Positions 4,597 to 47,005 of a stretch of DNA of 57,350 nt are shown piece after piece. The DNA lies in NCBI GenBank assembly GCA_001768195.1, contig MENI01000017.1:18338-75687 (forward strand). Direction: 5' to 3'. The DNA is from Bacteroidetes bacterium GWA2_40_15 (GTDB lineage Bacteria > Bacteroidota > Bacteroidia > Bacteroidales > VadinHA17). Position numbers and translations under genes: made by a program. Positions within the stretch are counted from its first letter, which is position 1. Each line of letters starts with the position of its first letter. The notes under the pieces were generated by a model. That model saw nothing but the letters and a program-made list of their open reading frames with translations. It did not search any database and was not told the origin of the DNA.

Positions 4597-4630
4597 GATG
4601 GAGCGATATGGCGATGGGACGATTATGCGA
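4597..4630. repeat. Degenerate octamer array after the ABC exporter gene
   Basis: Four imperfect 8-base units follow one another, each starting GAT and ending C: GATGGAGC, GATATGGC, GATGGGAC, GATTATGC. The array starts 8 nt after the stop codon at 4587-4589. It is a weak member of the stop-codon-adjacent tandem arrays found across this window. Confidence 0.5.
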
Positions 4631-4665
4631 ATTAAATGCAAAATGAAGAATTAACTTAATTAGAT

Positions 4666-4693
4666 CCCCTCCCGGGAGGGGAAGGGGTGGGTT
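4666..4693. repeat. GC-rich palindromic intergenic repeat, copy 1
   Basis: CCCCTCCCGGGAGGGG (4666-4681) is a perfect 16-bp palindrome, followed by AAGGGGTGGGTTT. Almost the same sequence occurs inverted at 32927-32956, differing by one inserted base and one substitution. It could form a hairpin between the exporter and GH35 genes and act as a terminator or a dispersed repeat. Confidence 0.75.
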
Positions 4694-4747
4694 TATTATT
4701 TATAACATATCTACTTATTTGAAAAATTAATTATATAGTATAAAGCT

Positions 4748-6574
4748 ATGATAGTCAGAAATATAAAGTATTTATTTATTCTATTGTTATTAACATGTTC
4801 TATATCAGGAGTAAGCTCCCAGAAGGGTAAACAAACCTTCTCTTTCAGTCCGACCGAATTTCTGCTTGATGATAAACCTTTTCAGATCATAAGCGGTGAA
4901 ATGCATCCCGCAAGGATCCCGGCTGAATACTGGAGGCACAGGATACAAATGGCTAAAGCCATGGGATGCAATACGATATCAGCATATATATTCTGGAACT
5001 ACCATGAGTCAGAAGAGGGAGTTTATGATTTTGAAACAGGTAACCATAATCTTGCTGAGTTTTTCAGGATAGTTCAGGAGGAGGATCTGTGGCTTATAGT
5101 CCGACCCGGGCCTTATGTATGTGCTGAATGGGAATTGGGAGGCATTCCTCCTTATCTTCTGCGTATTCCCGATATAAAGCTGCGTTGTATGGATCCAAGG
5201 TATATGGCTGCAGCGGAACGATATATCGGAAAACTGGCTGAAGTGATAAAGCCTTTCATGGTAACACAGGGAGGCCGTTTGCTTATGATACAGATAGAGA
5301 ATGAGTACGGAAGCTATGGAAATGACCGGGACTACATGATGAGGCTTAAGGAAGTATGGAAAAATAACGGAGTCGATGTACAGACATTTACCGGCGACGG
5401 ACCAACAACATATATGCTTGAGGCAGGAACTCTTCCTGGAAGCGCTGTCGGGCTTGATCCGGGAAGCTCTATGGCTGATTTTGAACTGGCAGCCAAGATG
5501 AATCCCGGCGTGCCTGTTTTCAGCAGCGAAACATACCCGGGATGGCTTACTCACTGGGGTGAGGAGTGGGTCAGACCTGATACCTCAAAGCTTCTGAATG
5601 AGGTAAGATTCCTTATGGATAATAAAAAGTCATTCAACCTTTATGTAGTTCATGGAGGTACCAATTTCGGATTTACAGCCGGAGCAAACTCCGGTGGCAA
5701 AGGGTATGAACCTGATGTAACAAGCTACGATTATGATGCGCCAATTTCGGAGCAGGGTCAGCCAACCCCTAAGTATATGGCCCTTCGTAACCTTATAGGT
5801 TCATATCTTCCCAAGGGGAAGAAACTACCCCCCATACCTGAGCCGATACCTGCTATTGAGCTGACTGCAATAGGGCTGCAGCCTTTTAACTCAATGTGGA
5901 ATCTTCTTCCTGAACCGGTCAGTTCTGTACAGCCTAAGCCTTTTGAGGCTTATGGACAGGATTATGGTTTTATTCTGTATAAGACTGAACTTATCGGACA
6001 TAAATCGGGCAAACTGGTTATAACAGAGCTTCACGATTATGCTACAGTATTCCTGAATGGCAATTACATTGGAAAGATTGACAGGAGGCTGGGAGAGAAT
6101 TCAATAGAGATCCCTGCAACTGATGTAAAGAACCCTGTTCTCGAAATACTGGTTGAAGCTATGGGCCGGATCAATTTTGCCCAGCATATTATTGACAGGA
6201 AGGGTATTACGGAACGAGTCACCCTTAACGGAATGACACTAATGAACTGGCAGGTGTATAATCTTCCAATGAACAGGAAAAGCATTTATGATCTCCGTTC
6301 CTCAGGAAAGAATCTTAACAAACCAGGATTAATCTTCAAGGGAAATTTCATGTCAATGGAAAAGGGAGATACTTTTTTTGATCTGTCAAATTATACCAAA
6401 GGCATTGTGTGGATCAACGGGCATAACCTTGGAAGATACTGGAACATAGGGCCGCAGAAAAGGCTTTACTGTCCCGATTCATGGATTAAAGAGGGTCTCA
6501 ATGAAGTCATCATATTTGACCTTCATCAGACTGAGCCAAAACCGATATTCAGTTTTAAAACTCTTTATCAGTAA
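4748..6574 (+). CDS. Exported GH35 beta-galactosidase
   Basis: A retaining glycosidase that releases terminal beta-linked galactose from glycans. A signal peptide covers about residues 1-24 (hydrophobic core LFILLLL, cleavage after VSS). The GH35 barrel starts with LDDKPFQIISGEMHPAR. The acid/base is E186 in IENEYGSYG and the nucleophile is E261 in SSETYPGWLTHWG, by homology to human GLB1. GGTNFGF at 303-309 is a third family hallmark. The C-terminal part (about 380-608) has the jelly-roll domains usual for the family, including WINGHNLGRYWNIGPQ. At 608 residues it is full length. It probably acts in the periplasm on galactose-containing side chains, fitting the neighbouring polyuronide genes. 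Confidence 0.92.
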   Translation: MIVRNIKYLFILLLLTCSISGVSSQKGKQTFSFSPTEFLLDDKPFQIISGEMHPARIPAEYWRHRIQMAKAMGCNTISAYIFWNYHESEEGVYDFETGNHNLAEFFRIVQEEDLWLIVRPGPYVCAEWELGGIPPYLLRIPDIKLRCMDPRYMAAAERYIGKLAEVIKPFMVTQGGRLLMIQIENEYGSYGNDRDYMMRLKEVWKNNGVDVQTFTGDGPTTYMLEAGTLPGSAVGLDPGSSMADFELAAKMNPGVPVFSSETYPGWLTHWGEEWVRPDTSKLLNEVRFLMDNKKSFNLYVVHGGTNFGFTAGANSGGKGYEPDVTSYDYDAPISEQGQPTPKYMALRNLIGSYLPKGKKLPPIPEPIPAIELTAIGLQPFNSMWNLLPEPVSSVQPKPFEAYGQDYGFILYKTELIGHKSGKLVITELHDYATVFLNGNYIGKIDRRLGENSIEIPATDVKNPVLEILVEAMGRINFAQHIIDRKGITERVTLNGMTLMNWQVYNLPMNRKSIYDLRSSGKNLNKPGLIFKGNFMSMEKGDTFFDLSNYTKGIVWINGHNLGRYWNIGPQKRLYCPDSWIKEGLNEVIIFDLHQTEPKPIFSFKTLYQ

Positions 6575-6575
6575 G

Positions 6576-6748
6576 CGGTAATCAGTAATTGGTAATCGGT
6601 AATCGGTAATCGGTAATCAGTAATCGGTAATCAGTGATCGGTAATCAGTAATCGGTAATCAGTAATCGGTAATCAGTGATCGGTAATCAGTAATCGGTAA
6701 TCAGTAATTTTAACAGATACCGAATACCGGATACCGGATACCGAATAC
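6576..6748. repeat. Heptamer tandem array between convergent genes
   Basis: About 19 copies of a 7-base unit (TAATCGG, with TAATCAG and TGATCGG variants) run from 2 nt after the GH35 stop to about 6708. They are followed at 6715-6748 by a second heptamer array of the form ACCGAAT/ACCGGAT. Together they fill the whole gap to the stop codon of the convergent ceramidase-like gene. No open frame or protein signal was seen. Confidence 0.95.
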
Positions 6749-6755: not shown

Positions 6756-8027
6756 TCAGAACTGATGAATTAACTCAACACACTTGTCAATCAGGGGCTT
6801 CTCAACACCAGGCATAAACCTCGTAACACGTACCTCATAACCACCTTCAGGGAACATTTTATCAGTGCAGATATACCCGCTTGAACCATTGCAGTGGGTA
6901 GCAACTATTGTTCCTGAATAGGGCGAACGGTTCTTGATCTCCATACCTATTTCATTCACTAATTCACCTGAAATGCCGGAAATTACAAGTTCTCCTATCT
7001 TGAATACAGTCAGTCTGATTTCTGCATCAGATGCAGGCTCCAGTTTATCAACAGGAATATCGGCTGATGACGGTTTTTTACCCGGGAATGCCATAACACC
7101 GCTGACAGTCTGGACTTCTTTGAGAGGATATGTCTTAATATCTGCCAGAATCCTGTTAGCTTCCCTTGCCACATGAAATCCCACAGCTTCAATTTCAGTG
7201 AAATTTTTACCGGGCCCATATAACGGATTAATGTCGCCTGAAGCTCCGGCTGTAACAGCCACCACTACATCGTTTCCGATAGAATTCTTAATATGTCTTG
7301 CTGCAGCTCCCGGCCAATCGCCTGTGATAAGAGTATTATCCTGACCGCTGACTGTTCCATGGCATGGCCAGTTAACAAGTACAGCAACAGGTTTATCGTT
7401 CATATCCTCAAACCTGGCAACTACAAGGTCATGGTCGCAGGGACCTTCCGGATTCCTGCCGAGAAAGATTGTTCCATTTGCAGCAAGAGCCCTGCGGTTG
7501 ATATTCATTCTGCATTCACCCTTGCTGATCCCCATCTTAACCGGTACAGGATTCATGCTTGCTGTTCTGGCCATAGTTAAAAGTCTTTCTTTCATGAATT
7601 TAACGTATGCAGGAACCGTGTTGGTAGTATCTGAATCAGTCGATCTTGGCGATGGCGCTCCATGGTTATGGGCTGCAGTAATCATAATGTTTTCCGGAGA
7701 AACGCCTGAAGCTTTTGAAATATCGGTCTTTAATTCATCAACGTATGCTGAAGTGAATCCGATCAGGTCAACGGAAATGATCATGGCTTTGATTTTTTCT
7801 CCGGAAAAATAAAGAGCTGTTGCATAAAGGCTGTCATGAACTCCTGTTGAAGGCTGGGTACGTGCAGCATAGCCTGCCATTACTGTTGGTGCCGGTGGGG
7901 TAATGTTCACCTGGCTGACTCCCATTCCGATTAACGGTTTATCCTGTGGCTTAACTTGAGCTTCTGACACTGAAGGCAGCAGAAGTATTATCATTATAAT
8001 GATACCGGGTATAAGACTCTTCTTCAT
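6756..8027 (-). CDS. Neutral/alkaline ceramidase-like exported hydrolase
   Basis: 423 residues with a signal peptide (core IIIMIILLLPSV, cleavage after SEA). The start of the mature protein, GMGVSQVNITPPAP.VMAGY, and the motif ITAAHNHGAPS (H120, H122) match the zinc-binding N-terminal domain of the neutral/alkaline non-lysosomal ceramidase family. The C-terminal immunoglobulin-like domain of full ceramidases (total about 650-700 residues) is absent. Bacteroidota carry many short members of this type near carbohydrate genes, and their substrates are not known. A role as ceramidase is therefore not assured. It lies 19 bp after the deacetylase-GH3 gene, in the same operon. Confidence 0.75.
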   Translation of the reverse strand: MKKSLIPGIIIMIILLLPSVSEAQVKPQDKPLIGMGVSQVNITPPAPTVMAGYAARTQPSTGVHDSLYATALYFSGEKIKAMIISVDLIGFTSAYVDELKTDISKASGVSPENIMITAAHNHGAPSPRSTDSDTTNTVPAYVKFMKERLLTMARTASMNPVPVKMGISKGECRMNINRRALAANGTIFLGRNPEGPCDHDLVVARFEDMNDKPVAVLVNWPCHGTVSGQDNTLITGDWPGAAARHIKNSIGNDVVVAVTAGASGDINPLYGPGKNFTEIEAVGFHVAREANRILADIKTYPLKEVQTVSGVMAFPGKKPSSADIPVDKLEPASDAEIRLTVFKIGELVISGISGELVNEIGMEIKNRSPYSGTIVATHCNGSSGYICTDKMFPEGGYEVRVTRFMPGVEKPLIDKCVELIHQF

Positions 8028-12363: not shown

Positions 12364-13437
12364 TCAGCGTTTTACCCTCGCATTTCCTTTCCAGATGCTC
12401 CATACCTGTTCCTCATCGGCAGGCAGGGCATAATCAGTCAGGGAAGTTGTTGCCAGGGCTCCCGATGCCCATCCGAACTCAACCCACTTTTCAGGGCTCC
12501 ACCCTTTAAGAATGGCATAGAGCATTCCTCCCACGAAGCCGTCACCGCCTCCGATACGGTCAAGTACATCAATCTCCCTTGGTTCCACAATGTGCCATTT
12601 ATTGTTTTCCAGCATAAGTGCACCCCACAGATGTCTGCTGACACTTACTACCTGCCTGAGTGTTGTTGCGAATACAGAGGCATTCGGGAATGCGTCTTTC
12701 ACCCTTTTGATCATCTCCTTAAAGCTCTCAATCTGTGCTGCAAGTTCTTTTCCTCCCTCTTCCGGACCCTTTATTCCAAGGCATAACTGGAAATCTTCTT
12801 CATTTCCTACAAGGATATCGGATGCTGCAGCTATTTCACAAAAAATGCTGCTGAGTTCCTTTTCCCTTCCTTTCCAGAAAGATTCCCTGTAGTTGAGGTC
12901 GAAGGAGATAAGAGTACCTGATTTTTTTGCCGTTCTGGCAAGTTCCAGGCAGAAGTTACCTGTCTCAGGCGAGAGCGCAGCAATCAGCCCTGAAAGATGC
13001 AATAACTGAACACCCTCTTGTTCAAATAGTTTCTTAAGATTGAAATTATTTACATTCAATGTTCTGCCAACCTCGCCGGCCCTGTCATTATGCACCCTCG
13101 GGCCGCGGGTTCCGAATCCGCTGTCGGCAATGTTGAACTGATGACGGAAACCCCATGGACCTCCCTGTTCAACTTCAACTCCTTCATACGTAAGATGCCG
13201 GCTTGCCAGATTGTCCTTTATCAGCCTCGCTACCGGACTATCCTTTACAAACGTAGTAAGCACCCTGACAGGCAATCCGAGATATGCTGAGATAGTTGCA
13301 ACGTTTGTTTCAGCGCTGGTAGCCTGCATGAAGAATGTATTGCTGGTATGTACAGGCTGGCTGTTCAGCGGAGTGATGCGCACGCCCATGCTGGTCGGCA
13401 CAACCAGTGACCATTTGAAATCCGTTTTCAGTTTCAC
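12364..13437 (-). CDS. kdgK: PfkB-family kinase, probably 2-keto-3-deoxygluconate kinase
   Basis: A 357-residue ribokinase/PfkB-fold kinase. The anion-hole motif IGGGDGF at 295-301 carries the catalytic base D299. SFDLNYR at 178-184 and GNEED at 211-215 are the usual KDG-kinase signatures. KdgK phosphorylates 2-keto-3-deoxygluconate to KDPG, the meeting point of the hexuronate and KduI/KduD routes encoded nearby, which supports the assignment over other sugar kinases. The N-terminus (KTDFKWSLVVPTSMGVR) begins close to the first strand. A heptamer array separates it from the upstream aminotransferase gene. The KDPG aldolase partner is not in the window. Confidence 0.78.
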   Translation of the reverse strand: MKLKTDFKWSLVVPTSMGVRITPLNSQPVHTSNTFFMQATSAETNVATISAYLGLPVRVLTTFVKDSPVARLIKDNLASRHLTYEGVEVEQGGPWGFRHQFNIADSGFGTRGPRVHNDRAGEVGRTLNVNNFNLKKLFEQEGVQLLHLSGLIAALSPETGNFCLELARTAKKSGTLISFDLNYRESFWKGREKELSSIFCEIAAASDILVGNEEDFQLCLGIKGPEEGGKELAAQIESFKEMIKRVKDAFPNASVFATTLRQVVSVSRHLWGALMLENNKWHIVEPREIDVLDRIGGGDGFVGGMLYAILKGWSPEKWVEFGWASGALATTSLTDYALPADEEQVWSIWKGNARVKR

Positions 13438-13441: not shown

Positions 13442-13531
13442 TATAAGTTTAAAGTTCAAAGTTCCAATGTTCCAGGTTTCAGGTTCCAGGGGTCTTTTGC
13501 CCTGAGCCCTGCGCCCTGCGCCCTGAGCCTT
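13442..13531. repeat. Two consecutive heptamer arrays abutting a stop codon
   Basis: The first block runs as heptamers of the type AGTTCAA/AGTTCCA/AGGTTCC (13446-13490). The second is CCCTGAG/CCCTGCG (about 13500-13530). The array lies between the kinase start codon and the aminotransferase stop at 13532-13534, which it touches. Confidence 0.85.
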
Positions 13532-14719
13532 TTACTCTTTACAGGCATTTACAAATTGTGCTGCTGCTTCCTTTATTTCTTCCTCGGTTGAATTAATGTT
13601 CATTCCCCAACCTGCTCCAAGCCCTCCGTCAACAACTCCTATACTGATATTCATACTTCTGCTCAGTATATCATCGGTTTTCGGATAAGAACCTTTTGTG
13701 TGAGGCTGTCCAACGCTCTTAAGGTGTGCAAGTACGTGCTCCATATTGGCATAAACATGCCATCCGCTCTTATCCACAGTCTTTGATCCAAGTGCCGATG
13801 AAACCTTTGCTGCCTGCTCCCTTGTTTCAAATATTACTGTGCAAAGAGTTCCACAATCGCCTTCAGGATCATTCAATACTCTGAATTTGAATCCTTTTGC
13901 TTCTGATATAAGATTTTTGAAATATGCTCTTTTTTGTCTTAGTACCGAGACAATACTGTCAAGTTTCTTAAGCTGGGCAAGAGCAACTGCAGCTGTGAGT
14001 TCATTAATCCTGAAATTCAGTCCAAGTAATGAACGGTTTCCTATCTCAACACCTGTGCGGTTCGGACTATGTCCCTGATCGTGCATGCCAAATGCAATTT
14101 CGTAAAGAGATTTATCATTGGTAATTATGAATCCGCCATCGCCTGTGTTGATAGTCTTAAAGAAATTAAGCGAAAAGGCGCCGATATTACCAATTGTTCC
14201 AATCTTTTTGCCTTTATATGATGCTCCCGCTGCCTGACAGCAGTCTTCCAGCACCAGGAGATTATGCTTCCTGGCAACAGCCATTATCCTGTCCATATTA
14301 CATGGATTACCAAGCATATGTACAGGCATAATAGCCTTTGTACGATCTGTAATTCTGCGCCCGATGTCGTCCGGGTCAAGTGAAAGGCTCTCATCTATTT
14401 CAGCCAGCACGGGTATAAGCCCCAGGAATACTACTGATGAATAGCTGGCAACAAAAGTATAGGCAGGAATGATTATTTCATCTCCCGGTTTAAGTCCCAG
14501 TGCAAATGCCGAGCATAAAAGAGCAGAGGTGCCTGAAGAGGTTGCAAGGGCGTGTTCAGCACCTGTATATCTGACGAGCTCATTTTCTAAGGTAAAGACT
14601 TTTTTGAGGAATTTAGGATCATTTTCATTTCCATAACGGAAAAGATAACCATCCTTCATAACCTCAAGGGCTGCTTCCATTTCCTCTTTTCCATACCAAT
14701 AAGCTCCCGGACCTGGCAT
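13532..14719 (-). CDS. DegT/DnrJ/EryC1/StrS-type PLP aminotransferase
   Basis: 395 residues. The start at 14719 is chosen because an AAGGAGGT ribosome-binding site sits 4 nt upstream. The longer frame to 14887 translates an intergenic inverted repeat. The PLP fold is complete: TSSGTSAL at 60-67, EDCCQAAG with D159, and K188 in SLNFFKTINTGDGG as the Schiff-base lysine. Family members transfer amino groups to keto-sugars bound to nucleotides, but some act on free keto-inositols or sugars. Its place in a catabolic uronate block, with no nucleotide-sugar genes nearby, leaves the substrate open. Confidence 0.82.
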   Translation of the reverse strand: MPGPGAYWYGKEEMEAALEVMKDGYLFRYGNENDPKFLKKVFTLENELVRYTGAEHALATSSGTSALLCSAFALGLKPGDEIIIPAYTFVASYSSVVFLGLIPVLAEIDESLSLDPDDIGRRITDRTKAIMPVHMLGNPCNMDRIMAVARKHNLLVLEDCCQAAGASYKGKKIGTIGNIGAFSLNFFKTINTGDGGFIITNDKSLYEIAFGMHDQGHSPNRTGVEIGNRSLLGLNFRINELTAAVALAQLKKLDSIVSVLRQKRAYFKNLISEAKGFKFRVLNDPEGDCGTLCTVIFETREQAAKVSSALGSKTVDKSGWHVYANMEHVLAHLKSVGQPHTKGSYPKTDDILSRSMNISIGVVDGGLGAGWGMNINSTEEEIKEAAAQFVNACKE

Positions 14720-14764
14720 AATGACCTCCTTTTTAATATTAACTATAATAATAAATAATTTCCC

Positions 14765-14854
14765 GAAAATCAATTTTCTACCCCAAACCACCGGGAGGGG
14801 GTAAATTGATTTTCTTCGCGCCCCCCGGGGATGGGGTAAACGAAGAAAATCAAT
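14765..14854. repeat. Intergenic inverted-repeat cluster upstream of the aminotransferase gene
   Basis: A perfect 14-bp inverted repeat, ATTGATTTTCTTCG (14805-14818) and CGAAGAAAATCAAT (14841-14854), flanks a 22-nt GC-rich spacer. A third, partial arm (AAAATCAATTTT, near 14766) lies to the left, separated by ACCCCAAACCACCGGGAGGG. The gap 14720-14992 holds no gene that I can see. On the minus strand the hairpin sits 45-135 nt upstream of the aminotransferase ATG. Confidence 0.8.
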
Positions 14855-14992
14855 ATGAGAATGATCAAAAGTAAGAATTTCCGTCATTTATTCAGCAATT
14901 GAACTGCTATTTCGGGTTAGAATAGGAATGTACTATTTGAACATCGATAGAACATTAAGTTTAAATGCCCCTAAATGACCTTTCCCAGAGGA

Positions 14993-20575: not shown

Positions 20576-20654
20576 ATTTTATGCTTTGTGAAGTTAATAA
20601 TCATTGTTAAAGCTATTTGTTGCTTGTTGCTTGTTATTTACCTACCCGGCATCC

Positions 20655-20782
20655 AGCACCGTCGCACCGTCACACCGTTGCACCGTTGCACCGTCGCACC
20701 GTCGCACCTTCGCACCGTCGCACCGTCACACCGTCGCACCGTCGCACCGTTGCACCGTCGCACCGTCACGCCGTCGTACCGT
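20655..20782. repeat. Octamer tandem array overlapping the 3' end of the oxidoreductase gene
   Basis: About 16 units of an 8-base repeat (CACCGTCG with CACCGTTG, CACCTTCG and CACCGTCA variants). The array runs through the stop codon (20766-20768) of the Gfo/Idh/MocA gene, so the last codons (GTTA) are made of repeat units. All three frames are open for long stretches because 8 bases repeat every 24. Confidence 0.95.
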
Positions 20783-21752
20783 AATATTCTGCCACAATCT
20801 CATCCATCACCTTACTGGTACGTGCTGCTGACATACCTGTGCTTGGTGATTCCCCGGTTCCTTCAAGCGACCTTACAATTTTATCGATAAGGTAATACTG
20901 CACGTGTTCAGGACGCTCATTTATTAATTCCCTTCTACCTTTGTCGTTTGTAATTACTATATTCTCAAAATCAAAAGTTGAAAACTTTATTGATCCCTTT
21001 TCACCGATAAACTCAATTGTGTCCCTGTAACTGTAGCCAGATACATTGAAGCACCATGTGCCTGTACCGGTTATACCGTTGTTGTATTCAAGCTCTGCGG
21101 TTACGAAATCTTCTGCCTTGTACAGTCCTCCATTATTTCTCACCATCGATCTGACCTTTTTTACAGGTCCGAAAAGGTAGTCAAAGTAATCGAGCTGATG
21201 GCTGGCAAGGTCGAAAAAGTGACCACCTCCTGCTATGGCAGGATCAACCCGCCATGGAAGCTTTCCTGCCTTTTCATCTTCTGAAGCAGGCTTGAACAGC
21301 TGGATATGAAAGAACAGAACTTTGCCAATGGTACCTGTTTCAATAAGCTCCTTCACCTTAAGGAACCCCGGGAGGGCTCTCCTGTAGTAGGCAACAAATA
21401 CAGGAACTCCATACTTTTCTGATGCATTGTTAATTCTTTCACATTCGGCATAGTTGAGAGCCATTGGTTTTTCGATGTAAACAGGTTTTCCGGCCTTAAG
21501 TGTTGCAATGGCATATTCTGCATGGCTTCCGGGAGGCGTGGCAACATATACAGCATTTATTTCTTCATCATTTATAAGCTTATGCGCCTCAGAGTAAACT
21601 TTAGGTACATTATGCCTCCTCGCATAATCTTCTGCCAGTGCCCTGTCCCGTCTCATAACAGCAATAAGTCTTGAACCTTTTACTTTACTGAATGCAGGAC
21701 CGCTTTTAACTTCGGTTACACTCCCGCATCCTATCATGCCCCATTTTATCAT
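20766..21752 (-). CDS. Gfo/Idh/MocA-family NAD(P)-dependent oxidoreductase
   Basis: 328 residues. An N-terminal Rossmann domain begins WGMIGCGSVTEVKSGPAF (GxGxxxE-like). The EKPMALN loop near residue 94, with its catalytic lysine, and HFFDLASHQLDYFDYLFG define the family. Members oxidise or reduce sugars, inositols and sugar acids. Substrate is not predictable. The 3' end reads into a tandem repeat, so the final residues GTTA are probably a recent change. It lies between larA-like and gnd genes in the uronate block. Confidence 0.88.
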   Translation of the reverse strand: MIKWGMIGCGSVTEVKSGPAFSKVKGSRLIAVMRRDRALAEDYARRHNVPKVYSEAHKLINDEEINAVYVATPPGSHAEYAIATLKAGKPVYIEKPMALNYAECERINNASEKYGVPVFVAYYRRALPGFLKVKELIETGTIGKVLFFHIQLFKPASEDEKAGKLPWRVDPAIAGGGHFFDLASHQLDYFDYLFGPVKKVRSMVRNNGGLYKAEDFVTAELEYNNGITGTGTWCFNVSGYSYRDTIEFIGEKGSIKFSTFDFENIVITNDKGRRELINERPEHVQYYLIDKIVRSLEGTGESPSTGMSAARTSKVMDEIVAEYYGTTA

Positions 21753-23169: not shown

Positions 23170-23230
23170 ATTAACAATTTATTGGTTGTATATAAGAATT
23201 AACATTCCTATACTAAACAACTGTTTCAGG

Positions 23231-28702: not shown

Positions 28703-28759
28703 AAAAAGCAGTATTAAACTTTGCCAAATCTAGTCAAATATGATTATAAAATGAAAATG

Positions 28760-28940: not shown

Positions 28941-29537
28941 CTTCCCCTTCCTCCAGTTCCTGAGTATATGGCTGAAATTTGATAATGCATTCTGCTTCTG
29001 TGGCGTAAAAATACCTTCATTGGCAGCCCTTACATCCTCAATTGTATAAAATGCTTTGGGATTGAAAGTGTTTATAACTTCAATCACTTTCCCAAGTTCA
29101 TTCCTGTGAACGATTGTATATACAAGATATACCTCATCCCTTGCTCCGTGAGCCTCAACGGATGTGGCTCCGTACCCGCTCTTATTAAGGATCTGGACCA
29201 GCTCCTGGCCTCTTTCATTTGCAAAAACTCTTATCATCTGAATCCCCATGGCAAGTCTTTCCTCAATTATCATTCCTATCAGGTTCCCTGTTGCAAATCC
29301 TGCAGCATAGGCTATGTAATTTACATAATTGTCGAGGTTCTGCATTATCTTGCTGATTGCAGTAATCCATATCAGAACCTCAAAAAATCCCAGAATGGGA
29401 GCTATATTTCTTTTCCCTTTTGAAACAAATATTATCCGCATTGTGCCAATCGACTGGTCGCAGATACGGGCAAGAAAGATCAGCAAAGGCAAAATGACGT
29501 AACTGAAAAAATCAGTATCAATAAAGGCTGTTTCCAT
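28938..29537 (-). CDS. UPF0316 membrane protein (DUF5698 plus DUF2179)
   Basis: 199 residues from the ATG at 29537. The longer frame to 29645 adds unlikely sequence encoded by an octamer repeat. Three N-terminal helices (about 12-95) contain the family signature DQSIGTMRIIFVSKGKRNIAP. The C-terminal cytoplasmic part (about 105-180) is a DUF2179 ferredoxin-like domain with GYGATSVEAHGARDEVYLVY. DUF2179 domains are also found in YitT-type proteins, and their role is not known. It is normal in length. Confidence 0.85.
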   Translation of the reverse strand: METAFIDTDFFSYVILPLLIFLARICDQSIGTMRIIFVSKGKRNIAPILGFFEVLIWITAISKIMQNLDNYVNYIAYAAGFATGNLIGMIIEERLAMGIQMIRVFANERGQELVQILNKSGYGATSVEAHGARDEVYLVYTIVHRNELGKVIEVINTFNPKAFYTIEDVRAANEGIFTPQKQNALSNFSHILRNWRKGK

Positions 29538-29581
29538 TAGTGGCAGTTTTTGTTTGATTACAAATATAAGAAGAATGGTAT

Positions 29582-29611
29582 TACGGTACGACGGTACGAC
29601 GGTGTGACGGA
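29582..29611. repeat. Short octamer array upstream of the UPF0316 gene
   Basis: ACGGTACG ACGGTACG ACGGTGTG ACGG: three 8-base units in the reverse sense to the 28760 array. It is the only array in the window not directly beside a stop codon. It lies in a divergent gap, 45 nt upstream of the UPF0316 ATG. Confidence 0.8.
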
Positions 29612-29731
29612 TTTGATAAATAAATAATGAGGCAATCTGAAACATATCAGAATATTATTTAAATTTGATTATTAGATCATGCAGGTGGAATTGCATGAAA
29701 ATCATTATGTCTCACTATATTATCTTGCTAA

Positions 29732-30091
29732 ATGGGAAATTATCAGAAACTTCATGTATGGCTACTTGCCAAGGAATTAGCTGTTAAGATCTATAAACTT
29801 ACAGGTAAACAGCCTTTTACAAAAGATTTCGGACTAAAGGATCAAATACAGCGTTCTGCTGTGAGTATTCCAGGCAATATTGCCGAAGGCGATGAATCGG
29901 GAACCAATAAAATTTCAGTCAGATATTTTTACATTGCTAAAGGATCAGTTGCAGAACTTCAGACTCAACTAATAATTGCCTGTGAAATTGGATATGTTGA
30001 GAATAGCGTTATGGAATCCCTGGCAGATAAATGTGACAGGATCTCAATAATGCTTAATAAGTTAATAAAAACCAGGTCAGAAAATTTTTGA
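29732..30091 (+). CDS. Four-helix bundle protein (23S rRNA IVS / S23 type)
   Basis: 119 residues. The sequence starts YQKLHVWLLAKELAVKIYKL. The motifs FGLKDQIQRSAVSIPGNIAEG and FYIAKGSVAELQTQLIIA mark the small four-helix bundle family first named from 23S rRNA intervening sequences. These proteins are very common in Bacteroidota and form pentamers. A function is not established. No rRNA gene lies nearby, so it is free-standing. Another octamer array follows its stop. Confidence 0.92.
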   Translation: MGNYQKLHVWLLAKELAVKIYKLTGKQPFTKDFGLKDQIQRSAVSIPGNIAEGDESGTNKISVRYFYIAKGSVAELQTQLIIACEIGYVENSVMESLADKCDRISIMLNKLIKTRSENF

Positions 30092-30109: not shown

Positions 30110-30183
30110 CGTAGCACCGCCGTACCGCCGTACCGCCGTACCGCCGTACCGTCGCACCGTCGCACCGCCGTACCGCCGTACCT
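30110..30183. repeat. GTACCGCC octamer array downstream of the four-helix gene
   Basis: About nine 8-base units, mostly GTACCGCC with GCACCGTC variants. The array lies 18 nt after the stop at 30089-30091 and before the promoter of the next gene. Confidence 0.95.
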
Positions 30184-32898: not shown

Positions 32899-32926
32899 TT
32901 TATGTGGAATTATTTATTTTTTTAAA

Positions 32927-32956
32927 CCCACCCCTTGCCCCTCCCAGGAGGGGAAC
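32927..32956. repeat. GC-rich palindromic intergenic repeat, copy 2 (inverted)
   Basis: AAACCCACCCCTTGCCCCTC followed by CCAGGAGGGG is the reverse complement of the element at 4666-4693 apart from one inserted base and one substitution. This makes it a dispersed repeat in this genome. It sits upstream of the rhodanese-like gene and next to a heptamer array. Confidence 0.75.
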
Positions 32957-32962: not shown

Positions 32963-33001
32963 CCCTGAGCCCTGAGCCCTGCGCCCTGCGCCCTGTGCCT
33001 T
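32963..33001. repeat. CCCTGAG/CCCTGCG heptamer array
   Basis: Five 7-base units (CCCTGAG, CCCTGAG, CCCTGCG, CCCTGCG, CCCTGTG) end directly against the stop codon of the rhodanese gene at 33002. The same units occur at 13500-13530 and 34300-34330. Confidence 0.9.
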
Positions 33002-33613
33002 TCACTCACACCCCCCGTCAAGCTTTTTTGCAGCAACATGTTTTGCTTCGTAGTATTTTCTCTTGAGACTGTCGGGGAGACTGTTAATCTCCGTAAACAT
33101 TGTACCTGCTCTTTTCCTGTTTTCATACAGGGAATTTTCGCGGGCTGAGATCCTTTCGCCTGTAAAACGGCTGTTCATAACAGTGTTAAACCACTCATTA
33201 AGACCTCCTTTCATCACATAAATGTTCTTTAGCTTAAGTCCTTTGGCTATTACATATGCGTTGTTCGCATCATAATCTCCGTTGGAATAAAGGATAAACT
33301 TCATGTTACCGCTGCCGGAAATTATTCCGGGAGCAATTTCAATGAACCTGTCATAAGGGATATTTACTGAACCTGGAATGTTAAAACGGTTGAACTCGCC
33401 GGAGGACCTTAAATCGATAAGCAGAACAGATGAATCTTCAGTAGCCACGAACCTTGCAGCCTGGTCAACTGTAACCCATGATTTCTCATCGAGGGCATCC
33501 GAAAGCAAATTCTGTGGCTTTACCGTAAATGACCTGCTACCTGTTAAAGGCAGCAAAGCAAGAATAATTCCAATGCTCAAAAGAATTATTGACAGTTTTT
33601 CACGAGTATTCAT
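33002..33613 (-). CDS. Membrane-anchored rhodanese domain, catalytic Cys replaced by Ser
   Basis: 203 residues: one N-terminal helix (about 8-25) and a rhodanese domain (about 45-150). LLIDLRSSGEFNRFNIPGSV fits the family, but the active-site loop reads FILYSNGDYDA, with Ser110 where the persulfide-forming cysteine should be. The protein probably binds rather than transfers sulfur. The C-terminal 50 residues (TGERISARENSLYENRKRAG) are basic. It lies 10 bp after the YeeE gene, so the genes form an operon. Confidence 0.82.
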   Translation of the reverse strand: MNTREKLSIILLSIGIILALLPLTGSRSFTVKPQNLLSDALDEKSWVTVDQAARFVATEDSSVLLIDLRSSGEFNRFNIPGSVNIPYDRFIEIAPGIISGSGNMKFILYSNGDYDANNAYVIAKGLKLKNIYVMKGGLNEWFNTVMNSRFTGERISARENSLYENRKRAGTMFTEINSLPDSLKRKYYEAKHVAAKKLDGGCE

Positions 33614-33623: not shown

Positions 33624-34226
33624 TTAAATATTATCTGTTATGTCAGGTCTGGCAAATCTCTTCTCAGCAATCTCTGCTATCCAAAACATTACAAGGGCCG
33701 CGACGATCAGCAGCAGAGTAAATAGCCCGGGAGAGATACCCAGAGCCTCGTTGATTTTCACCGGTCCCTTATAAGTGCCGTTGGCCAGATTCTGAATGTA
33801 AGGATATGTTTCTGCAAAAAGGAAAGCACCAGCCAATCCCCCGGCAGCAAATACCATGGCATCAATTTTTCCGATTGAGAGTGCGCTTAATCCTGTCCCG
33901 GGGCAAAAACCGCCCATTATGAATCCTGCACCCATAATAATTCCGCCTATAATTGCTGCTTTTACATAAAATTCATTTACGAACACAAGATTGAGATCGA
34001 GCAGTCCGAAATAACTCAGTAACTGAGATCCGACAAGCGCGACTATGGCAGCTGTAAAGAATACTTTTATAACTGTTGTATCATATCCGTAAAACATACC
34101 GGCCAGTTTGCGGCTTGATGAAAAGCCTGCCTGTTCCAGCGCAAATCCGAATCCGATCCCTATCACCAGAGCAAACAGCAAATCAACCCATTCCGGTAAT
34201 CCTGTTAAAGTAACTATTGGTCCCAT
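33624..34226 (-). CDS. YeeE/YedE-family sulfur-compound transporter, half A
   Basis: 200 residues with about five membrane helices. GFALEQAGFSSSRKLAGMFYG at 27-47 and GGFCPGTGLSA at 105-115 (C108) are the family signatures. In the related thiosulfate transporter TsuA, cysteines at such GxC loops pass thiosulfate through the membrane. The length is half of TsuA, and a second half gene is next to it, as in the two-protein PmpA/PmpB arrangement. It likely works with the following gene. Confidence 0.85.
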   Translation of the reverse strand: MGPIVTLTGLPEWVDLLFALVIGIGFGFALEQAGFSSSRKLAGMFYGYDTTVIKVFFTAAIVALVGSQLLSYFGLLDLNLVFVNEFYVKAAIIGGIIMGAGFIMGGFCPGTGLSALSIGKIDAMVFAAGGLAGAFLFAETYPYIQNLANGTYKGPVKINEALGISPGLFTLLLIVAALVMFWIAEIAEKRFARPDITDNI

Positions 34227-34228
34227 TT

Positions 34229-34333
34229 CGTTATTTTGTTATTTTGTTGTTTTGTTATTTTGTTATGCTGTTTATTTGCGTTTGATGCTGGGTTAATAAC
34301 CCTGTGCCCTGCGCCCTTCGCCCTTCGCCTTTT
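34229..34333. repeat. T-rich octamer array followed by CCCTGCG heptamers
   Basis: About five units of TTGTTATT (8 bases, 34229-34268) are followed by CCCTGTG, CCCTGCG, CCCTTCG, CCCTTCG (7 bases, about 34301-34329). The block fills the gap between the two YeeE genes and touches the stop codon at 34335. Confidence 0.85.
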
Positions 34334-34334: not shown

Positions 34335-34844
34335 TTATATCCAGTTCTTCCTGAAAAACCATGCAAATACATAGGCCGATCCGAATATGGCCATCATAGT
34401 AACAAATCCGGCAAGCGACAGTACCGCCATTCCCGATAGGGCCGCACCACTGGTACATCCTCTCGCAAGCTGTGCCCCGTATACGAAAAATACACCTCCC
34501 AGAAATGCAAAGACAAGTCTTCTTGTAACAGAAATATCAGGTGACTTCTCAACCTGTAACTTCAGTCTTTTTGATATTGCTCCGGAAATGAAACCTCCAA
34601 TCAACAATCCAAGCAATTCTACGGTAAGCCAGTTTTTTAAGGGCTTGTTCCCGTCTTCGAAATACTTGCCATAGTAGACTGAATTATCAGTATGCTGTCT
34701 GTCGACGGCACCAACAATTGAGACAACGCAATACTTAAGTCCTCCGCTTGCACCCAGTCCTCTTCCCGATAAGAACATTGCCATCAACAGCACCAGCCCC
34801 AATAAGGTTCCTGCAATGTATGGATTCATGTATTTATTCTTCAT
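34335..34844 (-). CDS. YeeE/YedE-family sulfur-compound transporter, half B
   Basis: 169 residues with about four membrane helices. It ends in the second family signature, LARGCTSGAALSGM (C130). A hydrophilic segment near 50-68 (QHTDNSVYYGKYFEDGNKP) probably faces the periplasm. Together with half A the two cysteine loops resemble a split TsuA/YeeE. It is the first gene of the minus-strand run YeeE-B, YeeE-A, Ser-type rhodanese, rhodanese-like protein. Confidence 0.85.
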   Translation of the reverse strand: MKNKYMNPYIAGTLLGLVLLMAMFLSGRGLGASGGLKYCVVSIVGAVDRQHTDNSVYYGKYFEDGNKPLKNWLTVELLGLLIGGFISGAISKRLKLQVEKSPDISVTRRLVFAFLGGVFFVYGAQLARGCTSGAALSGMAVLSLAGFVTMMAIFGSAYVFAWFFRKNWI

Positions 34845-35617: not shown

Positions 35618-36394
35618 ATGGGAAGATATAAGCTTACGATTGAGTACGAAGGGACACGTTATGCAGGCTGGCAGATACAGAAGGGTGGAAAGACTATACA
35701 GGGTGAGATACTGGGTGCGTGCAGAGATTTATTTAAAAGTGAAGCAATCGATCTTTTCGGTGCAGGAAGAACCGACAGCGGTGTTCATGCTATCGGACAG
35801 ACTGCACATCTGGGGGTAGAAACCGACCTTGTTCCGCTTAAAATCAAATATGGAATAAATGACCGTCTTCCTCCTGATATAAGTATTATTCATGTCGGGG
35901 AAGCTCATGATAAGTTTCATGCCCGGTACGATGCCCATGCCAGAAGCTATATTTATCAGATAAGCAGAAGACGAACAGCTTTCGGAAAAAAATTTGTCTG
36001 GTGGATCAAGGATAATCTGGATATCAACCTGATGAACGAGGCTGCAAAAAACTTCCCCGGGTTAAAGGATTACATATCTTTCACCGATGAAGCAGGAGAA
36101 CAGTCATCAACCAAAGCAGAGGTTTTCCATGCATCGGTTTATGATTTCGGCGATCTGATCCTTTTTCACGTTATAGGTTCACATTTCCTCTGGAAACAGG
36201 TCAGACGGATGACGGGAGTGCTGGTGGAAGCAGGGCGGGGCAATCTTAAACCGGACGATGTTGCTTCGTTCTTCAAAGTTAAGTCTGATATACCTGCAAA
36301 ACTTACTGCCCCTCCAAGCGGATTGTTTCTTGAGAAGGTCTATTACAGGAATGAAGAGATATCATACACTGCGAATCCGGTCATAAGATTATAA
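35618..36394 (+). CDS. truA: tRNA pseudouridine(38-40) synthase TruA
   Basis: 258 residues. TruA makes pseudouridine at positions 38-40 of the anticodon stem-loop. The N-terminus MGRYKLTIEYEGTRYAGWQ and the active-site motif FGAGRTDSGVHA with catalytic D53 are typical, as is the C-terminal FLWKQVRRMTGVLVEAGRG. The enzyme is complete. It ends 2-3 nt before a heptamer block. Confidence 0.96.
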   Translation: MGRYKLTIEYEGTRYAGWQIQKGGKTIQGEILGACRDLFKSEAIDLFGAGRTDSGVHAIGQTAHLGVETDLVPLKIKYGINDRLPPDISIIHVGEAHDKFHARYDAHARSYIYQISRRRTAFGKKFVWWIKDNLDINLMNEAAKNFPGLKDYISFTDEAGEQSSTKAEVFHASVYDFGDLILFHVIGSHFLWKQVRRMTGVLVEAGRGNLKPDDVASFFKVKSDIPAKLTAPPSGLFLEKVYYRNEEISYTANPVIRL

Positions 36395-36396: not shown

Positions 36397-36436
36397 ACGG
36401 TACTCGGTACTCACTACCCCTCACCCCTCACCCCAC
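36397..36436. repeat. Heptamer block at the truncation point of an FAD oxidoreductase gene
   Basis: CGGTACT CGGTACT, then CCTCACC CCTCACC CC, in 7-base steps, follows the truA stop. It continues into the last codons and stop (36421-36423) of the truncated minus-strand gene. Confidence 0.75.
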
Positions 36437-36675: not shown

Positions 36676-37641
36676 ATGAAGAGAAGGGATTTCATCAAAG
36701 CTGCAGCAATTGCTGCGCCGGCTATCAGCCTGTTTCCGGCAGATCTTTCAGGAATAGAACGAAAAGCTGTTCCCGGTAAAATTGAAAAAAGATCCCTGGG
36801 GCGAACAGGGGAGATGCTTTCAATGATCGGATTCGGAGGCATAATTGTTATGAATGCCACTCCGGATGAGGCAACAGAATCAGTTAAGCTGGCTATCGAC
36901 TCAGGTATCAATTATTTTGATGTTGCTCCAACCTATGGCGATGCGGAAGTAAAACTCGGACCTGCACTGGAACCCTACAGGAAAAATGTTTTTCTTGCAT
37001 GTAAAACTACTCAAAGGAATAAGACAGGGGCATTGGAAGAGCTGGAAAAATCTTTGAAGAACCTTCGTACTGATCATTTTGACCTCTACCAGTTCCATGC
37101 TGTAACAACTATGGAGGATGTGGAAAAGATATTTGCCCCGGGAGGTGCAATGGAGGCTTACCAGGAGGCAAAAAAAGCAGGAAAGATAAGGTTCATTGGA
37201 TTCTCCGCACATTCAGTTGAGGCATCACTTGCCATGATGGACCGGTATGATTTTGATACAATTCTTTTCCCGGTAAATTATGTTACCTGGTATGCCGGCG
37301 ACTTTGGGGCACAGGTTCTTGAAAGGGCAAAACAGAAAAATATGGGTATACTGGCGCTTAAGGCAATGGCAAAAGGCCCCTGGCCAAAGGATGCTCCGGA
37401 TAAGGCAAAATATCCGAAGTGCTGGTATGAACCGCTTACCACTACCGATGATATAAAAATGGGACTGCGATTTACTTTATCTCATCCGGTAACTGCGGCT
37501 CTTACTCCGGGCGATACAGGGCTGTTCAAAATAGCGCTGAATATGAAGAATAGTATTAAGCCATTGAAAGTTAAGGAGATACTAGCAATAAAAGAAAAGG
37601 GTCTGGCAGGAAATCCATTGTTCAAATATCCAAGAACCTGA
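36676..37641 (+). CDS. Aldo/keto reductase with Tat-type signal
   Basis: 321 residues. The N-terminus MKRRDFIKAAAIAAPAISLF has the twin-arginine signal pattern. The AKR tetrad is present: D and Y in NYFDVAPTYGDAE, K in FLACKTTQRNK, H in LYQFHAV. GFSAHSVEASLAMMDRYDFD and the C-terminal KEKGLAGNPLFKYPR fit the AKR group common as exported enzymes in Bacteroidota. It would use NAD(P)H, unusual for an exported enzyme, though Tat allows export with cofactor bound. Substrate unknown. Confidence 0.87.
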   Translation: MKRRDFIKAAAIAAPAISLFPADLSGIERKAVPGKIEKRSLGRTGEMLSMIGFGGIIVMNATPDEATESVKLAIDSGINYFDVAPTYGDAEVKLGPALEPYRKNVFLACKTTQRNKTGALEELEKSLKNLRTDHFDLYQFHAVTTMEDVEKIFAPGGAMEAYQEAKKAGKIRFIGFSAHSVEASLAMMDRYDFDTILFPVNYVTWYAGDFGAQVLERAKQKNMGILALKAMAKGPWPKDAPDKAKYPKCWYEPLTTTDDIKMGLRFTLSHPVTAALTPGDTGLFKIALNMKNSIKPLKVKEILAIKEKGLAGNPLFKYPRT

Positions 37642-37675
37642 CGCCTGTCGCCTGTTCCCTGTCGCCTGTCGCCTA
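37639..37675. repeat. CGCCTGT heptamer array between convergent genes
   Basis: TGA CGCCTGT CGCCTGT TCCCTGT CGCCTGT CGCCTAT: 7-base steps start at the stop codon of the reductase gene (37639-37641) and end at the stop codon of the opposite lipoprotein gene (37673-37675), filling the whole gap. Confidence 0.95.
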
Positions 37676-38092
37676 TTTAGTATACTTAAGTGTCAGGTCC
37701 ATAGTTTTATCATAAATAAAATAGCATGGATTCTCGCACATATCTTCAGTATATCTTACCCGTGGTGTTGAAGAATCGACTACTGTATATGATTTATTAT
37801 TAACAATGTAAGTTGCAGTAATTGTATAAGTTCTGTTCAGAGAAACCTTCTTCTCATATTTTGAAGAATTAATGACTGTTTTTGAGTCATAAATTATATT
37901 GTCCTCAATTCTGCCTTCCCATAATGTAACCAGTACTCCCCGTTCGTTATTTGGGTCAAGTTCTGCTTTAATTATAACATCAAAAGGTTCCACAGAAGTG
38001 CAATCATCGCAATTGGTAAAATTTTTACTGTCCTCACACGAAAACATTGCAACGATAGTCAGTAGAAATATGATTCTGATGATTCTGGTCAT
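37673..38092 (-). CDS. Small lipoprotein of unknown function
   Basis: 139 residues with a lipoprotein signal (VAMFSC, Cys19). The mature part is beta-rich and includes six further cysteines, among them NCDDC and MCENPC, which could pair. KKVSLNRTYTITATYIVNNKS suggests an immunoglobulin-like fold. No family is recognised. It is 5 bp after the ankyrin-repeat gene, so it is probably its operon partner. Confidence 0.65.
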   Translation of the reverse strand: MTRIIRIIFLLTIVAMFSCEDSKNFTNCDDCTSVEPFDVIIKAELDPNNERGVLVTLWEGRIEDNIIYDSKTVINSSKYEKKVSLNRTYTITATYIVNNKSYTVVDSSTPRVRYTEDMCENPCYFIYDKTMDLTLKYTK

Positions 38093-45489: not shown

Positions 45490-45513
45490 CATGCCGGTCG
45501 CCGGTTACTGGTC
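45490..45513. repeat. Short GCCGGTC heptamer array between convergent genes
   Basis: ATGCCGGTCGCCGGTTACTG then GTCA: three 7-base steps (GCCGGTC, GCCGGTT, ACTGGTC) ending close to the TonB-family stop codon at 45512. Confidence 0.55.
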
Positions 45514-46255
45514 ATTGTGCCACAAAATGATAAGTAAGTGTGCCCATCTGGATTTTCGGTGCCTTAAGGTCCGAATTGAACCGCGTGATCACCGCTGCCC
45601 TGACTGCCGCCTCAACCAGGCAAGGATCGGAGGTAGTGCTTTCACCTGTTATTACAAGGGTCTTCTCCACAGCACCCTTTTGATTAACCTCTATTCTCAA
45701 GGAAACTTTTCCCGATCCCTGACATTTATATATCGGTATTGGCAGATAGGTATGTGTCCTGCCTTTAAGTTCATAGTAGATACGTGTCGGCCCCTTGTAA
45801 TTTGCAGCCATCTCCTGCGATTCGGAGGGCTTATTCTGGTCATCTTTTACTTTCGATTCATCATTGAAAGCAAGATTTTCATCAGTTTTATCTGCAGCTT
45901 TCTTCTGTTCATCAATATAATTATCAACACTTAGCTTTCCGCTTTTTATGAGTTCTTCCTTAACCTTATCAATGTAATCATCAGGATTGACTCTTGCATC
46001 AGCTTTGTTTGCGAGGTTCCTTGCTATGTTCAGCATCTCTTCATCACCCTGGAGTATCTTCTCAATTGTGGTTATTGGTACCTCAATCAGTTTTTCTTCT
46101 TCAGGTTGTTCTTCGGCGAGAAACTCAATTTCAAACATATCCCTTGCCTGAACTTGCAATGACCTGATCTGAAATGACATAATGATGATAGCAACAATAA
46201 GATGAAATATTACTGTACCCAAAATTCCAACCAGCCTGCCTTTGTACTTCTTCAT
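45512..46255 (-). CDS. TonB-family energy-transducer protein
   Basis: 247 residues. One N-terminal helix (GILGTVIFHLIVAIIIMSF, about 11-28), an acidic periplasmic linker (FLAEEQPEEEKLIE), a coiled middle (about 60-160), and a C-terminal TonB-like domain: PIYKCQGSGKVSLRIEVNQK and AVRAAVITRFN. Typical TonB proteins couple the ExbBD motor to outer-membrane receptors. ExbB and ExbD genes are not beside it. The proline-rich linker of E. coli TonB is replaced by an acidic/lysine-rich linker. Confidence 0.8.
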   Translation of the reverse strand: MKKYKGRLVGILGTVIFHLIVAIIIMSFQIRSLQVQARDMFEIEFLAEEQPEEEKLIEVPITTIEKILQGDEEMLNIARNLANKADARVNPDDYIDKVKEELIKSGKLSVDNYIDEQKKAADKTDENLAFNDESKVKDDQNKPSESQEMAANYKGPTRIYYELKGRTHTYLPIPIYKCQGSGKVSLRIEVNQKGAVEKTLVITGESTTSDPCLVEAAVRAAVITRFNSDLKAPKIQMGTLTYHFVAQ

Positions 46256-46381
46256 AATCTGCGAAATTATAAATTATTACATTTGTCACGCTGATATTTG
46301 TGCTATATATTGAACTTGTTGGTTGTTATACTTAAAAGCATAATTCAGTATTATACCGAAATCATATAATAATCAGGAGTC

Positions 46382-46960
46382 ATGAAGAAAGAATTGGTAC
46401 TTGAGGTAATACAGGAGCGATGGAGTCCTTATGCCTTATCTCAGCAAACTGTTGAGGAGTTTAAAATAAAAGCAATGATGGAAGCGGCCGGTCATGCACC
46501 TTCATGCAATAATGAACAGCCATGGTTATTTGTCTATACTACCCGTGAGAATGAGAAGGTGTTCAACGATTATATTGAATTTCTGGTGGAAGGTAATCAG
46601 ATATGGGCTAAGAATGCTTATGCTCTTATAATAAGTATGGCCAGAACAAGATTCTCTCACAACGGAAAGCCAAACAGATTTGCACAGTATGATACAGGTA
46701 TGGCTGTTTCAAACCTGCTTATTCAGGCCACGGCTTTCGATATACATATCCACCAGATGGGCGGCTTCTCGGTTGAAAAGGTACGGGAATATTTCCGGCT
46801 TGGAGATGACGTTGAACCCATTGCAGCAATGGCTGCAGGATTTCTGGGTGATGGAACCAATCTGCCAGCCGATGTACTGAAAAAGGATGAGAACAGAAGA
46901 CCAAGGAAAACCGTCAACGACTATGCCTTTAAGAACAAATTGTATAATCCTGCTTTTTGA
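46382..46960 (+). CDS. Nitroreductase-family FMN protein
   Basis: 192 residues. APSCNNEQPWLFVYTTRENE near residue 39 is the FMN-binding start of the family (here with Cys-Asn-Asn). QYDTGMAVSNLLIQATAFDI and MGGFSVEKVREYF follow. It probably reduces nitro compounds or quinones with NAD(P)H; the true substrate is unknown. A short AGGAG lies 5 nt before the ATG. Single-gene unit. Confidence 0.88.
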   Translation: MKKELVLEVIQERWSPYALSQQTVEEFKIKAMMEAAGHAPSCNNEQPWLFVYTTRENEKVFNDYIEFLVEGNQIWAKNAYALIISMARTRFSHNGKPNRFAQYDTGMAVSNLLIQATAFDIHIHQMGGFSVEKVREYFRLGDDVEPIAAMAAGFLGDGTNLPADVLKKDENRRPRKTVNDYAFKNKLYNPAF

Positions 46961-46983
46961 GATAAATAGCGCTCATAGATTAA

Positions 46984-47005
46984 CTATCAGCTACCAGCCA
47001 TCAGC
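46984..47005. repeat. ATCAGCT heptamer block between convergent genes
   Basis: ATCAGCT ACCAGCC ATCAGCT ATC: three 7-base steps that run to the stop codon of the minus-strand gene at 47005. Confidence 0.65.

Follow-up and report, generated by a model that had tools for sequence, protein, structure and literature searches.

What keeps short tandem repeats at the ends of genes when the repeated word differs from place to place? The question is raised by a window of 57,350 bases (the whole stretch of DNA analyzed), located on contig C17 of Bacteroidetes bacterium GWA2_40_15, in which arrays of seven- or eight-base units stand in or close to stop codons. The genome comprises 4.77 Mb in 127 contigs, with an estimated completeness of 99.98%. 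We believe that these arrays are hypermutable slippage repeats anchored at gene 3' ends, in which position, step and strand are kept rather than sequence, and we assign this explanation a probability of roughly 0.55.

Period, distribution and stop anchoring of the arrays

Arrays were detected by a run scan (match +1, mismatch -2), a score of at least 12 defining a strong array, and Tandem Repeats Finder (TRF) served as a second method. The run scan yielded 11 strong arrays of period 7 and 5 of period 8 in the window, with TRF concordant, and no strong array of periods 4-6 or 9-13. This agrees with the first-pass annotation, an earlier note on this DNA, which had given the unit length as always 7 or 8 bases. 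No run reached the same score at periods 4-13 in 30 dinucleotide shuffles of the window. A search of the window against Rfam gave no matches at gathering score.

The survey also covered 50 further stretches of the same genome (871,250 bases), which together with the window amount to 928.6 kb, about a fifth of the genome, with 16,771 of the 928,600 bases masked. A sample of relatives comprised 441 kb around uxaC from 25 named metagenome-assembled genomes (MAGs) titled Bacteroidales, Bacteroidia or Bacteroidetes, whose proteins are 67-77% identical to the glucuronate isomerase of the window; because the uxaC neighborhood was picked from the window, the array density of the relatives may be biased upward. 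Two wider samples consisted of 19 stretches from the genus (380 kb) and of order and phylum stretches (683 kb). Stretch L142 shares 482 of 499 tested words with L023 and was dropped from the genus counts except the first count of periods and arrays, while L137 overlaps L029 (190 of 499 words) and neither carries an array. The short contigs L165 and L166 were excluded from the order group.

Base periods 7 and 8 account for 49 and 15 arrays in the own genome outside the window, 11 and 5 in the window, 62 and 13 in the relatives (75 arrays) and 8 and 4 in the genus sample (12 arrays), making 167 arrays in the four sets; period 7 is the main one and period 8 the second, and this peak is seen in the own genome, the named relatives and the genus sample. 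The order and phylum stretches held 18 arrays. Phylum loci from truA searches (99 kb, about 3.3 kb each) gave 2 arrays, both closer to a start. Array density is 27.9 per 100 kb in the window versus 7.3 in the other 871 kb (64 arrays); at about four times the density of the remaining sampled DNA, the window is unusually rich in arrays, which cluster regionally. The pattern is real and is spread over the own genome and many relatives, though patchily. An assembly artefact or chimera might be suspected, given that short repeats can be miscounted in metagenome assemblies; it is scarcely credible, as the pattern recurs at orthologous gene ends in named MAGs whose titles suggest several separate projects.

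A general lag-7 periodicity of intergenic DNA was considered and rejected: in tandem gaps of the own genome, with arrays masked at score 8, lag 7 (z 5.1) does not rise above lags 3-6 (z 4.8-8.1). The intergenic residue of the relatives after masking of arrays has z 9.4 at lag 7 and z 8.2 at lag 8, and this residual periodicity perhaps represents decayed arrays.

Genes were called by a purpose-written, simple codon-usage caller, with which the stop of an accepted open reading frame (ORF) is exact and its start uncertain; counts by gap type leave out overlapping genes. Outside the window, the convergent gaps of the own genome (15.7 kb) carry 20 arrays, its tandem gaps (80.0 kb) 36 and its divergent gaps (26.3 kb) 3, the last to be compared with 56 in 95.7 kb of other gaps. 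The corresponding figures for the relatives are 6 arrays in 3.8 kb, 51 in 23.4 kb and 13 in 11.7 kb.

Stop anchoring was evaluated with 2000 simulations in which every array was moved to a random, uniformly distributed position within the gap that holds it, with a cut of 12 nt. In the pooled tandem gaps 52 of 105 arrays lie within 12 nt of a stop, where 25.2 were expected (0/2000 simulations), and the same applies to 20 of 32 arrays in the pooled convergent gaps (13.8 expected, 13/2000), where there are no promoters to be avoided. The own genome outside the window gave 18 of 36 versus 7.5 in tandem gaps (0/2000) and 12 of 20 versus 8.1 in convergent gaps (89/2000); the relatives alone gave 26 of 51 versus 14.3 (0/2000) and 4 of 6 versus 1.8 (77/2000). 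The stop preference that had been proposed for the window was thus recovered in a genome sample checked against placement within the gap.

The arrays are also oriented. Among tandem-gap arrays lying closer to the stop than to the next start, the coding strand has G in excess of C in 62 cases and C in excess of G in 15 (pooled), and among those closer to the start in 10 and 15 cases, respectively, a weak majority only. The two sides differ in strand bias (Fisher p 2.6e-4), and position correlates with skew (Spearman -0.48). Arrays in convergent gaps, read from the nearest stop, show G over C in 22 cases versus C over G in 6. The pooled non-array parts of tandem gaps have a skew of 0.006 in the own genome outside the window and 0.063 in the relatives.

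It could be argued that 3' ends simply tolerate such repeats, i.e., that slippage of 7 or 8 bases occurs anywhere and selection clears it from coding and promoter DNA, so that only the 3' ends remain. The scarcity of arrays within genes (3/51 in the own sample, 3/75 in the relatives) and in the divergent gaps of the own genome is in line with this idea, as is the over-representation of heptamers in many bacteria, according to work cited in the available part of Rehm et al. (2015; PMC4692102). However, tolerance alone predicts neither the anchoring at stops in convergent gaps nor the G bias of the coding strand, and we regard it as doubtful.

Diversity and turnover of the units

The claim that many unrelated units occur side by side was borne out, with 45 distinct canonical units among the 64 arrays of the own genome outside the window and 63 among the 75 arrays of the relatives. 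At orthologous gene ends the unit is within one mismatch in 13 of 91 pairs, versus 30 of 1022 non-orthologous pairs, and 72 of the 91 pairs differ by at least 3 or in period; units at these ends would seem to be partly inherited and mostly replaced. For example, the SDR gene that follows uxaC has arrays (score at least 10) at its end in 11 of 20 genomes, window included, and the units there include GGCTCAG, GGCGCAG, GGTGCTG, TGGTTGC, GGCAAAG, AAATTTGA and TTTAAAG. Arrays of binding sites for an RNA-binding protein acting at 3' ends (e.g., an RRM-type or Rho-like factor) would be regularly spaced and close to stops, as observed, but the change of unit at the same gene end between species in those 72 pairs makes them very unlikely.

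Turnover is also apparent between the sister genomes L027 and L036, which have a mean identity of 93.4% over their aligned parts. In one gap the array measures 129 bp in one genome and 86 bp in the other, with different unit variants, and in another gap one genome has TGAGGAG while the other has AAAAGAT (score 10) followed by TGAGGTA. Variation in array length between genomes, which the first-pass annotation had expected, is therefore found together with variation in unit, and we read these differences as probable fast slippage with homogenization.

Regarding repeats described previously, the available part of Rehm et al. (2015; PMC4692102) reports G-rich heptamers, GGGNATC and GGGGA(C/T)T, in Xanthomonas and Nostoc, which are mostly intergenic, vary in length by species, show a preference for sites up to 50 bp from stops on the coding strand and for sites before starts on the non-coding strand, and are under-represented between divergent genes. 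Inverted pairs number 70-75 in each Xanthomonas and are few in Nostoc, and G-quadruplex formation by the G-tract consensus word was demonstrated in vitro. The same text mentions Calothrix heptanucleotides and cites earlier work on a general heptamer excess and on the idea of polymerase-footprint slippage. Since position, strand and inverted-pair pattern were all reported there, location at stop codons is not new, contrary to what had been supposed for this window. The present arrays share with these repeats the unit length of 7, the position after stops, the coding-strand G-richness and, in a subset, the inverted pairs. They differ in comprising dozens of unrelated words as well as octamers, in mostly lacking a G-quadruplex motif and in mostly having changed words at orthologous ends. 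Divergent gaps hold the 3 and 13 arrays given above. That they are themselves G-quadruplex repeats of the GGGNATC kind is highly improbable, despite the agreement in main period, position, strand and inverted pairs: a four-tract G3 motif is present in a minority of stop-proximal arrays (3/9 in the window, 1/16 in the own genome, 2/30 in the relatives), several units are A-rich (AAAAGAT, AATTACG, TTTAAAG), and a GGGAATC or GGGGA(T/C)T unit is found in 0 of the 167 arrays.

What is new here is the freedom of the unit, the octamers and the turnover of units; the word changes, whereas its position, step and strand are retained. The position, step and strand rule of bacterial heptamer repeats can in this way be considered apart from the words that obey it, and if it holds for dozens of unrelated words, no single-word account, such as G-quadruplexes or one binding protein, can be general.

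A 2025 survey (PMC12699852), in its available part, reports that bacterial and archaeal short tandem repeats are only weakly enriched around genes, and that prokaryotic phyla show an excess of a subset of the units of 6-9 bp. The part of MacGregor (2015; PMC4679880) at hand describes direct repeats of the fixed word TAACTGA in marine Beggiatoaceae, some Cyanobacteria and Bacteroidetes, which in the main genome mostly lie shortly before start codons; other heptamer arrays are also described in a few Bacteroidetes gaps, with one set just past a stop. Heptamers are common to both cases, but the TAACTGA unit occurs in 0 of the 167 arrays examined here. Cyanobacterial short tandemly repeated repetitive (STRR) heptamers are intergenic repeats of period 7 with a few fixed words per genome, in contrast to the unit diversity of the present arrays. 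Repetitive extragenic palindromic (REP) sequences and intrinsic terminators are likewise intergenic, follow stops and can form hairpins; here, however, we observe tandem arrays with free unit sequence and no enrichment of U-tracts. No report of free-unit heptamer or octamer arrays at stops in Bacteroidales was found in the literature, in a search that left most subscription papers outside its reach and is thus weak evidence of novelty.

Proposed slippage and the folding of 3' regions

According to the slippage explanation, minisatellite-like arrays would be built when replication slips, preferably by 7 and less often by 8 bases. These would begin in the stop or about a dozen bases from it, in DNA that is probably transcribed but free of ribosomes, the G-richer strand being the RNA-like one, and ribosome-free 3' RNA, possibly in the form of R-loops, may be what anchors them. 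Units would drift, be re-homogenized and be replaced, so that the same gene end mostly carries words that differ by species. For about one array in four, a downstream stretch of strong complementarity would allow the 3' region to fold as a long imperfect hairpin, and any effect on mRNA 3' ends would be structural and independent of the unit. Slippage hot spots are the best of the four roles put forward in the first-pass annotation. If the rule holds, the preference of bacteria for 7-base repeats can be tested as the product of a mutational process linked to where translation ends. In practice, 3' regions with such arrays would evolve fast and might serve to mark strains of uncultured Bacteroidales.

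Only tentatively do we suggest a sequence-independent generator at stops, which appears rather unlikely: where ribosomes leave the transcript, newly made RNA would pair again with the DNA behind RNA polymerase as an R-loop, or the exposed strand would fold, and replication through the site would add or re-copy steps of 7-8 bases. If such a generator existed, almost any word could become an array with a G-rich coding strand, and it would have produced the G-quadruplex repeats of Xanthomonas and Nostoc as one of its sequence outcomes.

By eye, many gaps consist of an array, a loop and an inverted array. A complementary downstream stretch scoring at least 35 accompanies 17 of 65 stop-adjacent arrays, versus 5 of 65 in a mirror control, and arm pairing compared with this control by the Wilcoxon test gave p values of 2e-4 for all arrays, 0.002 for the relatives and 0.19 for the own genome outside the window. 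A test of units, inverted versus complement, gave 13:4 with 18 ties in the own genome including the window. A permuted-partner test of the arms looked stronger (z 2.3, 132/5000; z 5.4, 0/5000), but it leaves local composition uncontrolled, and the mirror control was therefore preferred. Opposed arms are a real subset, about a quarter of the stop-adjacent arrays, and not the rule.

These arms could be taken to indicate selected stem-loops, the arrays being arms of termination or mRNA-protecting hairpins that expand by slippage. The 17 strong complementary stretches, with units varying by species, would suit this idea, as would the finding that regions after stops fold better than regions upstream of starts. 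However, 48 of the 65 arrays are without a strong partner, and array-free stops pair too (26/376 at the same cut versus 5 in the control, the first arm being shorter there, at 32 nt). No significant surplus of folding was seen in 3' regions with arrays relative to those without, the median z being -1.37 versus -1.51 in the relatives (p 0.92) and -1.31 versus -0.42 in the own genome (p 0.09). U-tracts after the stem are not enriched, with 6/21 array regions in the own genome and 3/34 in the relatives versus 24/80 and 11/80 sampled array-free regions. We thus consider selected stem-loops unlikely. A role in transcription termination, as proposed earlier, found no support for the class in the form of canonical terminators, although single arrays may qualify.

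Multi-frame stop insurance, corresponding to the translation-stop role suggested for the window, was likewise rejected. Stop triplets occur in sense and antisense units in 10 versus 10 of 30 arrays in the relatives and 2 versus 2 of 9 in the window; the own genome outside the window, with 5 versus 1 of 16, leans toward insurance in a small sample.

Several results weigh against the slippage explanation. Anchoring is not significant in the genus sample (tandem 2/6 versus 1.0 expected; convergent 1/3 versus 2.1), and no preference was shown in the order and phylum stretches, where 2 of 12 arrays in stop-bearing gaps lie within 10 nt of the stop (1.3 expected); the stop preference holds in the own genome and the named relatives, but its extension to the broader samples of genus, order and phylum could not be demonstrated. 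In the truA loci of the genus (96 kb in pieces of about 3.3 kb, with few gaps) there was no array of period 7 or 8 and one of period 21 within a gene. Some window arrays stand at starts (34225), and the proposed avoidance of divergent gaps, which is seen in the own genome outside the window, is not a strict rule, as 13 of the 75 arrays of the relatives lie in such gaps. Array occupancy across 18 gene families is uneven (chi2 66, 17 df, 0/5000 permutations), which may come partly from gap length and shared descent. With respect to the arms, inverted pairing in the own genome outside the window is not significant (13/22, p 0.52), and an inverted excess is also seen at array-free 3' ends (133/223 own, 72/117 relatives), because of which it is not special to arrays. 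Inverted arms were rejected as a general rule, the unit test of inverted versus complement giving 8:4 with 15 ties in the own genome outside the window and 12:7 in the relatives, and inverted versus reversed units showed no excess (10:11 and 14:12, respectively).

Individual arrays of the window and their surroundings

The first-pass annotation had listed 14 array places. Nine carry arrays of score at least 12 (6576, 13442, 20655, 23231, 30110, 32963, 34229, 36397, the latter through 36416-36434, and 37639), two are weak (28760, score 9, TRF 45; 46984, score 8, TRF 38) and three cannot be told from noise (4597, best score 5; 27733, score 7; 45490, score 6). The statement that all lie immediately after a stop was too strong. 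Seven of the 11 real arrays overlap a stop or lie at most 25 nt away, namely those at 6567, 20656, 30116 (24 nt), 32963, 36398, 37637 and 46984. The other four do not touch one: 13445-13490 is 41 nt from a stop and about 8 nt from the start of the longest form of ORF 12364-13437, 23228-23281 is 48 nt away, 28759-28798 is on the far side of its gap and 34225-34266 is at a start codon. All four gaps hold a second array abutting or overlapping the stop (13499, 23282, 28798, 34300).

The plus-strand heptamer array GGTAATC/AGTAATC (6567-6708) comprises about 20 units of seven bases, has a TRF period of 14 and overlaps the stop of ORF 4748-6574. Complementary to it is an opposed heptamer array on the minus strand (6717-6748; CGGTATT when read along the minus-strand gene), whose distance to the stop of ORF 6756-8027 is 7 nt. 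Two nt past the stop of ORF 13532-14887 lies a minus-strand heptamer array with sense GGCTCAG/GGCGCAG (13499-13529), which shares its gap with a second, drifting heptamer array (13445-13490) on the start side of ORF 12364-13437. In the latter the unit shifts stepwise from TTTAAAG to TTCAAAG to TTCCAGG, as though templated by its neighbor unit by unit.

The minus-strand octamer array of about 16 units with sense GACGGTGC (20656-20782) overlaps the stop of ORF 20766-21752, and a short heptamer array, TTGTTGC (20617-20635), lies on the start side of the same gap. Eight nt past the stop of ORF 23330-24172, a minus-strand heptamer array with TTTAAAG-like sense (23282-23321) is complementary to a perfect AGGTTCA array of 7.7 copies (23228-23281). 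A further minus-strand octamer array, with sense GACGGTGC/GACGGTTC and TRF period 24 (28798-28939), overlaps the stop of ORF 28938-29645 and is complementary to the weak, GGTACGGC-like octamer array at 28759-28798. Near the 5' end of the same ORF lies the octamer array ACGGTACG (29583-29610, score 14), which had been named as the sole exception, in a divergent gap; the array is real, and its divergent status depends on the start of the ORF, by which it falls in the gap or in coding DNA. The plus-strand octamer array ACCGCCGT (30116-30182) is 24 nt past the stop of ORF 29732-30091. This ORF matches 23S_rRNA_IVP (PF05635) and is flanked on both sides by octamer arrays (29583-29610, 30116-30182).

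Minus-strand heptamer arrays with sense GGCGCAG (32963-32999) and GGCGAAG (34300-34329) stand 2 nt past the stop of ORF 33002-33613 and 5 nt past that of ORF 34335-34844, respectively. The octamer array ATTTTGTT (34225-34266) overlaps the start codon of ORF 33624-34226 and is thus on the start side, contrary to the rule. The neighboring ORFs 33627-34226 and 34338-34844 match one half each of the Sulf_transp profile PF04143, and the gap between them holds two arrays. Two short plus-strand heptamer arrays, CGGTACT (score 8) and ACCCCTC (score 12), are located at 36398-36434, 3 and 21 nt past the stop of ORF 35618-36394. The heptamer array CCTGTCG (37637-37674) fills a convergent gap and overlaps both stops (ORFs 36676-37641 and 37673-38092), and a weak CTATCAG heptamer array (46984-47009) overlaps the stop of ORF 47005-47697.

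A Pfam scan of 29 window proteins revealed numerous sugar and uronate enzymes. An element resembling a miniature inverted-repeat transposable element lies at 24248-24400, with arms (24248-24264 and 24384-24400) that are 94% complementary and, inside them, a further inverted pair (24276-24294/24358-24376). The end word of the element has 4 occurrences in the sampled 928.6 kb of the own genome, two of them here. REP-like words at 4666-4693 and 32925-32952 (CCCCTCC..GGAGGGG, GGGGTGGGTT) have 8 and 12 matches scattered over the same 928.6 kb, and in some gaps, in the relatives too, such words directly follow a stop-adjacent array.

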